Assembly: GCF_000332275.1 (NCBI RefSeq)
Contig: NZ_CM001776.1
Coordinates: 496,001 to 560,000 of the forward strand
DNA length: 64,000 nucleotides
Reading direction: 5' to 3'
Source of the DNA: Synechococcus sp. PCC 7336
GTDB lineage: Bacteria > Cyanobacteriota > Cyanobacteriia > Thermostichales > PCC-7336
The notes under the pieces: model-generated
What the model was told of the DNA's origin: nothing
The model's database searches: none
Seen by the model: the letters and a program-made list of their open reading frames with translations, nothing else
Shown: in pieces, positions 3,454 to 41,047 of the stretch
How positions within the stretch are numbered: position 1 is the stretch's first letter
Layout: each line of letters opens with the position of its first letter
Program-made: the position numbers and the translations under genes

Positions 3454-3980
3454 CGGATGAATATGCACGGGGTACTTTGATGGTGCGTCAGGGGAAAGGA
3501 CGCAAGGACCGCATGATTCCCATTGGCGCTCGGGCCGTGGCTTGGATAGAGAAATATCTGGCTGATGTGCGGCCCCATCTCTGTTGCGGTCATGAGGATG
3601 GCCGTTTGTTTCTCTCTCATCTGGGGGAGCCGCTGACTCCCAACCGCTTGACTCAGTTGGTTCGCTCCTATGTCGATAAGGCTGAGCTGGGCAAGACGGG
3701 TAGTTGTCATTTGTTCCGTCACACGATGGCGACGCTCATGCACGAGAATGGAGCTGATATCCGTCACATTCAGGCGATGCTGGGTCACGTCAGTCTCGAT
3801 ACCACTCAGATTTACACCCAGGTCTCGATTAAGAAGCTCAAGCAGGTTCATACCCTCACTCACCCGGCTCGTTCCGAGCGATCGCTCTCCGTCGATTGGG
3901 ATGGACAGACTGAAGAGACACCCGCCACAGCCGATGAGTTATTCGCCACCTTAGCCGCCGAACAGTTGGACGAGCAGTAG
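3454..3980 (+). pseudogene. tyrosine recombinase, N-terminally truncated
   Basis: Only the C-terminal part of the catalytic domain of an integrase/XerC-like recombinase remains. The lysine beta-hairpin (RQGKGRKDR), HLFRH, LGHVSLDTTQIYTQV with the nucleophilic tyrosine, and an acidic tail are present. The DNA-binding domain and the first catalytic arginine are missing. The frame runs straight out of the right end of the ISL3 element, so a TTG or ATG start at 3477-3482 would make a headless protein. It is probably the residue of an older mobile element whose front was deleted with the arrival of the insertion sequence. Confidence 0.85.
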
Positions 3981-38836: not shown

Positions 38837-39109
38837 TCATGACCTCCATGATGATGTCCTCAAAATCAGCACTGGCGTAAAAATCTCCCCGCCCTCGCCC
38901 CTCAAATGCCTCAACTTTGCTAGATTGACAGTCTTTTGAGTGAGATCGAATAGACTGCTGCACGCACTGCGCTGAAGAGCCGCATGAACCTCCGAAGCAC
39001 TGATGCCTAACTCCTGGGCCAAAGACGTATAGGTCCAATCATCGGACGGCAATCCGTATAACTTTAACAGGCAAAGAATGTCTTGGGGCTTGAGCACTGG
39101 AGTCAGCAA
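38837..39109 (-). pseudogene. helix-turn-helix protein, truncated
   Basis: The N-terminal 70 residues match a cyanobacterial HTH protein (KPQDILCLLKLYGLPSDDWTY, then SLAQELGISASEVHAALQRS as the helix-turn-helix). Such proteins are normally about 200 residues, but here the frame degenerates after KTVNLAKLRHL and ends near residue 90. It may be a remnant of a TA-type or phage-type regulator. Confidence 0.6.
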
Positions 39110-39249: not shown

Positions 39250-39258
39250 GATTTGGAG

Positions 39259-39344
39259 GATAACGATTGAGTTCAGCGGACGCAGATAACTTTTGCAACT
39301 CAGCCGACCAACTTTCGGCATTCCGGTGCAGCGACTTGTTATGC
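39259..39344 (-). other. attC-like site A
   Basis: The site has the arrangement of integron attC sites: outer boxes GATAACG and GTTATGC, and inner boxes CAGCGGA and CCGG(T)G, with an imperfectly paired middle. It is about 86 bp long. It closely resembles site B at 40407-40492 (shared TAACGATTGAGTTCAG). Read on the minus strand, it follows the vapC-like stop by 15 bases, as a cassette attC should. No integrase is in the window. Confidence 0.5.
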
Positions 39345-39359
39345 AACGGCATCATCTGC

Positions 39360-39776
39360 TTACTCCAAGGGTATCGCCAAAAACTCGTCTGGCAATAATG
39401 CGGGAATGGCAGAGGCAGTAAAATCAGATTTATTTCGAGTCACAATAACTTCTACTCCTGCGACGTTTGCAGCCTCGCTTGTCACAGCATCTTCAAAATC
39501 TGTCATGGAGCTTTGTAATGCAGCCCTAATTACTACATCTGTTACACTAGCAACCTGAAGATGTTGCAATAACCTTGACAAAAGCTCACGGGCTGTTTCG
39601 CTGCCAACTTGACGATGCAAAATATAGAAAATATTCGTTACAGCATGACCCGAAATATAACCTTGGACTTGCGGTTGAGTTGCTGTACTCAATGCCTGTG
39701 CAGAAGCGATCGCAAATGGCTGTCGTTGGGCCAGAACATCGAGCAAAACATCACTGTCAAATAATACGTGCTTCAA
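39360..39776 (-). CDS. PIN-domain toxin, VapC-like
   Basis: This 138-residue PIN-domain protein is predicted to be a magnesium-dependent RNase. Acidic residues lie in LFDSDVLLDVLAQ at the N-terminus, MTDFEDAVTSEAA in the middle and VTRNKSDF near the end, the usual spacing. The start codon overlaps the antitoxin stop by four bases. It lies between two attC-like sites, consistent with a toxin-antitoxin cassette. Confidence 0.88.
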   Translation of the reverse strand: MKHVLFDSDVLLDVLAQRQPFAIASAQALSTATQPQVQGYISGHAVTNIFYILHRQVGSETARELLSRLLQHLQVASVTDVVIRAALQSSMTDFEDAVTSEAANVAGVEVIVTRNKSDFTASAIPALLPDEFLAIPLE

Positions 39777-40018
39777 CTGTATTTCTCCTCCAAGTAGTCC
39801 ACGTAGGACTCTGTAGGATCTTCTGTTCCTAGCTTAATCACCCCAATCAGGCTTTGAGTCCAAGGATCGAGACCAGTCAAAGAGTTTGTGTTGGGAATCG
39901 GAGGACTAAATAACACTAGCGTTTCTTTTTGAATCGAACTTAACAACAACTGGACTAAACGCCAACGATCGCCAATGGGCAACTGCAACGCCTGTTTTTG
40001 TAACTCCTGCCACGTCAT
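39773..40018 (-). CDS. VapB-like antitoxin
   Basis: This 81-residue acidic protein precedes the PIN toxin with an ATGA overlap. The N-terminal half (WQELQKQALQLPIGDRWRLVQLLLSSIQ) is a helical region common in cyanobacterial antitoxins; the C-terminal half (ESYVDYLEEKYS) probably wraps the toxin. No DNA-binding domain is obvious. Assignment rests mainly on the pairing. Confidence 0.75.
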   Translation of the reverse strand: MTWQELQKQALQLPIGDRWRLVQLLLSSIQKETLVLFSPPIPNTNSLTGLDPWTQSLIGVIKLGTEDPTESYVDYLEEKYS

Positions 40019-40019
40019 T

Positions 40020-40406
40020 CGCTTTCTCCAAACAACTTTTTATCTATTGTAAAGTGCTGCTGAGGCTTCTAACTTTAATTTCTGGGTAATGCCTCAGTGG
40101 TAAGGATCGAGTGTCTGCAGGGCAAGGGTTTCAGCACCTAATATCCTTGGCTCTACCGCTCCTGTTATGCTGTCCGCAGTCTTGAAAAGCCCAACATCCT
40201 ACCCAGTAAGGCTTTCATGAGATCTTGACCATAAAGAGGTATGTTTTACCGTCTAATCCATTGCTAGCAAGGCTTTGGGCAGCTTTGGCATGGAACTAGC
40301 ATACTAAGTCCGATAGAGCCATATCCTTACTGTTGAAGGACTATCCAGACAGGCTATCAGTTATCTCCAAACTATCATCAGTTATCTCCAAACTAGAAGA
40401 CAAGCG
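40020..40406. other. 387-bp gap inside the cassette
   Basis: No gene is visible between the antitoxin start and attC-like site B. It contains a tandem pair of 19-bp direct repeats (40356-40374 and 40377-40395; ATCAGTTATCTCCAAACTA) and otherwise nothing I can name. Cassettes are usually compact, so this may be a decayed gene or inserted sequence plus the promoter of the toxin-antitoxin pair. Confidence 0.45.
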
Positions 40407-40492
40407 GCATAACGATTGAGTTCAGTGGCGACTCGTAACTTTGGCATCTTCGCCAACCATTTTTATTCCGCCGCCGCAACGATTTGTTAGCA
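40407..40492 (-). other. attC-like site B
   Basis: The site is 86 bp with outer boxes GCATAAC and GTTAGCA and inner boxes CAGTGGCG and CGCCGCCG that can pair with each other; 13 of 21 outer positions match between arms. It shares size, box spacing and much sequence with site A. On the minus strand it follows the stop of the unknown gene at 40543 by 50 bases. Confidence 0.5.
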
Positions 40493-40542: not shown

Positions 40543-40948
40543 TCATTTAAGAACCAGCAGTTCACTGAACTTATTTTTCAAATCCGGCGATACCGTCAGT
40601 GGCTTATAAACTTCGCCTTCGTAGGGCTGCCAAACGTAACCTGGGCTAAAGGGGCGAAATAAAATCGAGGCTCCGAGCGATCGCCAAACCATCTCAGCTA
40701 GCACCAAACCTGGAAAACTGGGAACGGTCGCCTCTGAGATCGACTCACTATAGGTTCTAAATTCATCAACTTCCAAACCAACCAGGGCATAACGAAAGGG
40801 CGGGGCAGACTGCAACCGCTGATAGAGTAGAATACCTAATTCCGTCATCTGATAAGCAATGTCAGACGCATCAATTCCCACTTCACTGATGTCATCTGGA
40901 CAAGCCTGACACCACCAGTTTCCCTCAATATCTTGAAAAACTACGGAT
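40543..40948 (-). pseudogene. cassette gene of unknown function, 5' end replaced
   Basis: About 130 codons encode a soluble protein I do not recognise (VVFQDIEGNWWCQACPDDIS, FRYALVGLEVDEFRTYSE, FRPFSPGYVWQPYEGEVYK). The frame continues upstream to 41001, but those first codons read antisense through an ISL3 fragment, so the native start is lost or lies very near 40942. It sits upstream of attC-like site B, as expected for an integron cassette gene. Confidence 0.6.
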
Positions 40949-41047
40949 GTGAGCTTGAGCAGTTGGAGTGTCGATCCGGCCAACCAACAGATCGTCTTCA
41001 ACCTCCACTCAACCCAAACGGTGGCCTGTTGCCCGCTGTGCGATCGC
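40943..41047 (+). mobile_element. ISL3 transposase fragment
   Basis: About 105 bases match 1751-1855 inside the ISL3 transposase gene with only scattered differences (ACGGATGTGAGCTTGA, then GATCCGGCCAACCAACAG). No inverted repeats remain. It is a fossil of a second element that landed beside the cassette array and removed the start of the neighbouring gene. Confidence 0.85.

Follow-up and report, generated by a model that had tools for sequence, protein, structure and literature searches.

Two attC sites enclosing a VapBC gene pair in Synechococcus sp. PCC 7336: a very probable cluster of integron cassettes without an adjacent integrase

Two short sequences with TAAC/GTTA ends enclose a small toxin-antitoxin gene pair in the genome of Synechococcus sp. 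PCC 7336. A sequence-only reading of the 64,000-nucleotide stretch of DNA analysed here (the window) had taken them for attC sites on the minus strand, each following the 3' end of a minus-strand gene, and had proposed a cluster of attC sites around a VapBC-type cassette with no integrase in view. The locus thus raises the question of whether these are integron attC sites and, if so, how their cassettes came to lie where there is no integron. The genome is a single contig of 5,066,637 bases, its sequence is rich in GCGATCGC and its relatives are cyanobacterial.

The sites were scored using covariance models built in this analysis, not IntegronFinder's own. Model R1 is based on 13 aligned attC sites of other genomes and contains nothing from the Synechococcus sp. 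PCC 7336 genome; its sites were chosen among attC candidates from 80 intI-bearing loci of other genomes, mostly of Cyanobacteria and Chloroflexi. The structure written on the alignment consists of an R stem, an L stem and two extrahelical bases. Within the alignment, 91% of the cells pair over 21 pairs, compared with 26-42% when the partners are slid, and 15 of the 21 pairs have changes on both sides. The covariation score is 0.523, compared with 0.156 for shuffles and at most 0.10 for slid partners. Because the aligned sites were selected by hand using a filter on pairing, the alignment's own pair counts are biased towards the structure, and the search of independent sequence is the test that matters.

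When the window was searched with R1 without filtering, site 1 and site 2 were the two best matches (Table 1), and the next best reached 10.9 bits. A model search of the region and of the whole genome had been suggested by the sequence-only reading. In the 5.07-Mb genome both sites are again significant (E=1.1e-9 for site 1 and 1.1e-5 for site 2), among at least 32 matches at E<=1, and a second model, R2, retrieves at least 36 matches at E<=0.1; these counts are lower bounds, as scoring covered the best 150 of the 1168-1760 candidates from the first look. The expectation of further sites elsewhere is borne out by more than 20 other matches in the genome, many of them beside integron integrase genes. 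Applied to the 80 intI loci, R1 gives 67 matches at E<=0.001 (seed sites included, although most matches are not seeds). All distinct matches and intI occupy opposite strands, the arrangement seen in integrons, and the five same-strand matches are each the palindromic twin of a site also found on the opposite strand.

Table 1. Features of the locus (window positions) and integron-integrase loci of the genome (contig positions)
Feature	Position	Strand	Evidence and remarks
attC site 1	39258..39344	-	Ends cassette B (VapBC); R1 cmsearch 53.1 bits, E=1.5e-11; homology to attC of G038
vapC-like toxin gene	39360..39776	-	Intact, overlaps vapB stop; PIN_3, PF13470, E=1.9e-24
vapB-like antitoxin gene	39773..40018	-	81 aa; co-conserved with vapC
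Cassette B (inferred)	39264..40412	-	1149 bp, from G/TT of site 2 to G/TT of site 1
attC site 2	40407..40491	-	Ends cassette A; R1 cmsearch 38.3 bits, E=1.4e-7; homology to attC of G031, 49 bits
Gene A	40543..41001	-	No family match; relatives ~175-183 aa at full length
intI locus	927338-928277		Two frames overlapping at one frameshift
intI locus	2574022-2575093		Broken into several pieces
intI locus	4251138-4251437		N-terminal fragment

The two sites are 87 bp (site 1) and 85 bp (site 2) long, and on the minus strand both have the four boxes R'', L'', L' and R'. R'' reads GCATAAC in site 1 and GCTAAC in site 2, and R' reads GTTATCC and GTTATGC, respectively; the TAAC and GTTA cores present in both agree with the complementary RYYYAAC/GTTRRRY core boxes. 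In site 1, R'' occupies 39344-39338 and R' 39264-39258, which places the predicted G/TT cleavage point between 39264 and 39263, and R' of site 2 occupies 40413-40407. Six of the seven outer pairs are kept in site 1, and site 2 has an R'' one base shorter than that of the model. Both sites align to R1 over the full length, including the L''/L' stem, the extrahelical bases and an unpaired central spacer, with imperfect stems in which several model pairs are broken. At the R' end the two sites have an identical 17-base stretch, CTGAACTCAATCGTTAT. Site 1 begins 15 bp past the stop of the PIN toxin gene and site 2 about 51 bp past the stop of gene A, in keeping with the proposed position behind minus-strand genes.

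Site 1 has a chimeric look. On the L'' side and in the centre it is similar to the site of genome G038, described below, and to an array site at 2581339-2581424 of the genome, but it has the L'-R' arm of site 2. Cutting by IntI at R' alone would not be expected to swap L' arms between attC sites. The L stem of site 1 also has a central mismatch; judged from this mismatch and from an L' arm like that of site 2, not that of its closest relative, the recombination activity of site 1 may be reduced.

Some other cyanobacterial palindromic repeats also have TAAC/GTTA ends, and the two sites could be copies of an interspersed repeat of this kind that merely resembles attC. Their ordinary folding energies would fit such an origin: in single-sequence folding neither site does better than its shuffles (z -0.55 to +0.78), and a minimum-free-energy structure with paired R boxes is obtained only for the bottom strand of site 1. 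Since folding energy is uninformative here, the evidence for the sites comes from the profile, the covariation and the context. The covariance scores, the orientation of attC opposite to intI in the 80 loci, the association of gene and attC in other genomes and the annotated plasmid integron considered below all speak against a palindromic repeat, which we regard as very improbable. A blastn search of site 1 against the genome finds three other places, of which two are inside integron arrays and the third is site 2, so that the sites do not belong to an unrelated repeat family. A search of Rfam at gathering thresholds gave no matches for the attC sites; we know of no attC family in Rfam, and this null result says little.

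A cluster of attC sites lacking an integron-integrase (CALIN) is a defined class used by IntegronFinder (PMC9024848). Here, two attC sites lie on one strand after same-strand genes with no integron integrase adjacent. Thus, we conclude that the pair is very probably a CALIN, that is, two minus-strand gene cassettes forming a stranded piece of a known integron system, as the sequence-only reading had correctly proposed. A search with profile TIGR02249 found no intI in the 64-kb window, and the array accordingly does not have the intI, attI and Pc of a complete integron beside it. A tyrosine-recombinase C-terminal match at window positions 3636-3836 reaches 57.9 bits to TIGR02249, far below the cut-off; it is not an integron integrase.

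The same profile search of the whole genome identified three integron-integrase loci (Table 1), the nearest of them about 390 kb from the window. All three intI genes, this one included, are frameshifted or truncated, and attC arrays adjoin them on the expected side. Sequencing errors are, in principle, a possible source of the frameshifts. Eight clusters or single attC sites have no intI, near 218, 535 (the window), 726, 1138, 3156, 3509, 4527 and 4809 kb, and weak single matches occur near 2167 and 4781 kb. Within each dispersed cluster that has several sites, all sites are on one strand.

Cassette B contains a PIN-domain toxin gene and a small antitoxin gene upstream that overlaps it, consistent with the proposed VapBC type. 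For the antitoxin, no toxin-antitoxin family scores above the cut-off, and DUF6364 gives a weak match below it. The dN/dS values are 0.09-0.13 for vapC (against three homologues) and 0.09-0.12 for vapB; the pair is intact and under purifying selection. Genome G038 encodes a toxin that is 81% identical, with an attC directly downstream (36.8 bits). Its DNA homology runs from window position 40053 to 39273; it thus starts 35 bp ahead of vapB and ends inside the attC, where the L' arm is mostly different from that of site 1 and is followed by a common CGTTATC. In genome G111 the homology extends 39 bp into the attC, as far as 39306, and the covariance search detected no attC at this vapC-homologue locus. 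Among 29 other vapC-homologue loci scanned, a significant attC was found only in L136, and part of an attC is kept in L137. Given this rarity of attC, the VapBC pair also travels or persists without it.

About 390 bp of cassette B lie upstream of VapBC and have no assigned origin. The stretch of approximately 350 bp that separates vapB from site 2 (40053-40406) has no homology to the G038 cassette and contains short direct repeats (AGTTATCTCCAAACTA). Downstream of site 1, a short minus-strand open reading frame (38837-39109) has a helix-turn-helix-like start and is possibly a 3'-truncated gene.

Cassette A carries gene A. Homology to its full-length relatives starts inside the gene, near 40942, so that gene A, and hence cassette A, is probably truncated on the 5' side. 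In genome G031 a homologue of gene A (82%) is directly followed by an attC, and the homology reaches the GTTA of R'. In the conserved part of gene A, dN/dS is 0.05-0.12. The view of gene A as purely a cassette gene is weakened by genomes G299, G306 and others, in which a conserved gene precedes it and attC is absent. Gene A frequently takes second place in a conserved gene pair (L225 6147-7152, L226, L227), where the upstream product has no assigned function. Such a pair might encode an effector with its immunity protein or a toxin with its antitoxin.

We surveyed 59 related genomes for intI (E<=1e-20) and attC (E<=1e-4), and found intI in 29 and attC matches in 46. Nineteen of the 30 genomes without detected intI have attC matches (many of these 19 are drafts, but five are single contigs), and the highest count among them is 63, in draft genome G027. 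In the literature searched we found no equivalent count of attC-bearing genomes without intI. These proportions make the Cyanobacteria a useful phylum for studying how cassettes leave integrons.

Two histories could account for the cassettes in the window. A complete integron may once have stood here, of which a deletion removed intI and most cassettes and left two; we consider the chances of this about even. The truncation of the upstream cassette favours it, the short open reading frame downstream of site 1 is probably incomplete as well, and integrase decay is visible at three other loci. However, the window retains no trace of intI, and neither do the other dispersed clusters, although elsewhere in the genome the three broken intI genes can still be made out. 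This missing trace favours instead the insertion of the cassettes by IntI into a non-classical chromosomal target (attG), with no integron ever present at the locus, which would also explain the scattered attC sites. Insertion at attG is an established activity of IntI (Loot et al. 2024, as cited in PMC11023631 and PMC12901181), the eight clusters or single sites are far from any intI trace, and attC matches occur in 19 of the 30 related genomes in which intI was not detected. On the other hand, the upstream edge of the pair is not a clean attG junction, as the gene A homology stops inside the gene. No empty site was found; two DNA searches for one around the G031 and G038 homologues were uninformative (a multicopy element follows the G031 locus and the flanks in G038 are too little conserved). 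We hold direct insertion at attG as a possible but tentative account.

The behaviour of the cassettes can be projected from known integron biology. With IntI present, the attC bottom strand (the plus strand of the window) would form a bulged hairpin in which the R and L boxes make up the stems and two bases are extrahelical; IntI would cut this hairpin at G/TT in R'. Both sites would be IntI substrates, given the established recombination of the attC bottom strand by IntI (PMC11023631). VapBC together with site 1 would be excisable as a circle and could be reinserted at attI. As all three intI genes are broken, the cassettes probably stay where they are, and are most likely immobile unless IntI is supplied in trans; an integrase arriving in this way, for example from a plasmid integron, could remobilise them. 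The VapBC pair probably survives by stabilising itself as a toxin-antitoxin module, with a predicted toxin activity.

A broader generalisation would be that Cyanobacteria commonly carry scattered chromosomal cassettes without an integrase, inserted singly at non-classical sites by transient, probably plasmid-borne integrases, and that the VapBC pair is one of these. We regard this generalisation as unlikely; if true, many integron cassettes of Cyanobacteria live outside integrons.

Repeated palindromes of the form GTATAACNCCC-n-GGGNGTTATRC, spaced about 42 bp apart, were observed upstream of cyanobacterial intI genes, approximately 320-490 bp before the start of the intI match (L019, L035, L038, L075, L078 and others). 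In L014, where intI is truncated, comparable palindromes lie ahead of the gene. The unit is present in 18 of 35 intI upstream regions compared with 1.5 expected (from shuffles and from random windows of the same loci), a count that is partly circular because the motif was drawn from some of the sequences counted. The palindromes may be integrase-binding units of attI.

Integrons have already been reported in Cyanobacteria (PMC2426708, PMC8618304), a Cyanobacteria-specific attC model exists (PMC8352920), and integrase inactivation is common (PMC3108266). The present case resembles the reported cyanobacterial integrons in phylum, in its attC sites of the 85-90 bp type beside intI and in the TIGR02249-family intI genes of the genome. 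It differs in that all three intI genes look broken and the cassettes of the window are detached from them. Beyond the Proteobacteria, it extends the record of integrons by a cyanobacterial genome in which three integrons look dead and many cassettes are stranded, and it provides genes in both cassette and non-cassette form that can be compared between genomes.

In a plasmid collection, an attC among those most like site 1 (80.8% over 73 bp) belongs to Kovacikia minuta plasmid pB (NZ_CP083584.1), where an annotated full-length integron integrase adjoins the array, with five attC matches on the opposite strand; the pair in the window has no such integrase. The toxin-antitoxin cassettes of the Vibrio cholerae chromosomal integron (PMC11023631) likewise combine both genes of a toxin-antitoxin pair in a single cassette with attC behind them, but they belong to a large array, whereas the pair described here is of the PIN_3/VapBC type and sits in a two-cassette remnant. 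With the CALINs of IntegronFinder the locus shares at least two same-strand attC sites downstream of genes, the absence of intI nearby and the small size usual for CALINs; there is no essential difference, except that the sites were scored with our own models. Cyanobacterial integrons and their attC sites, and the CALIN class itself, were thus known already, and the pair in the window adds one well-documented case.
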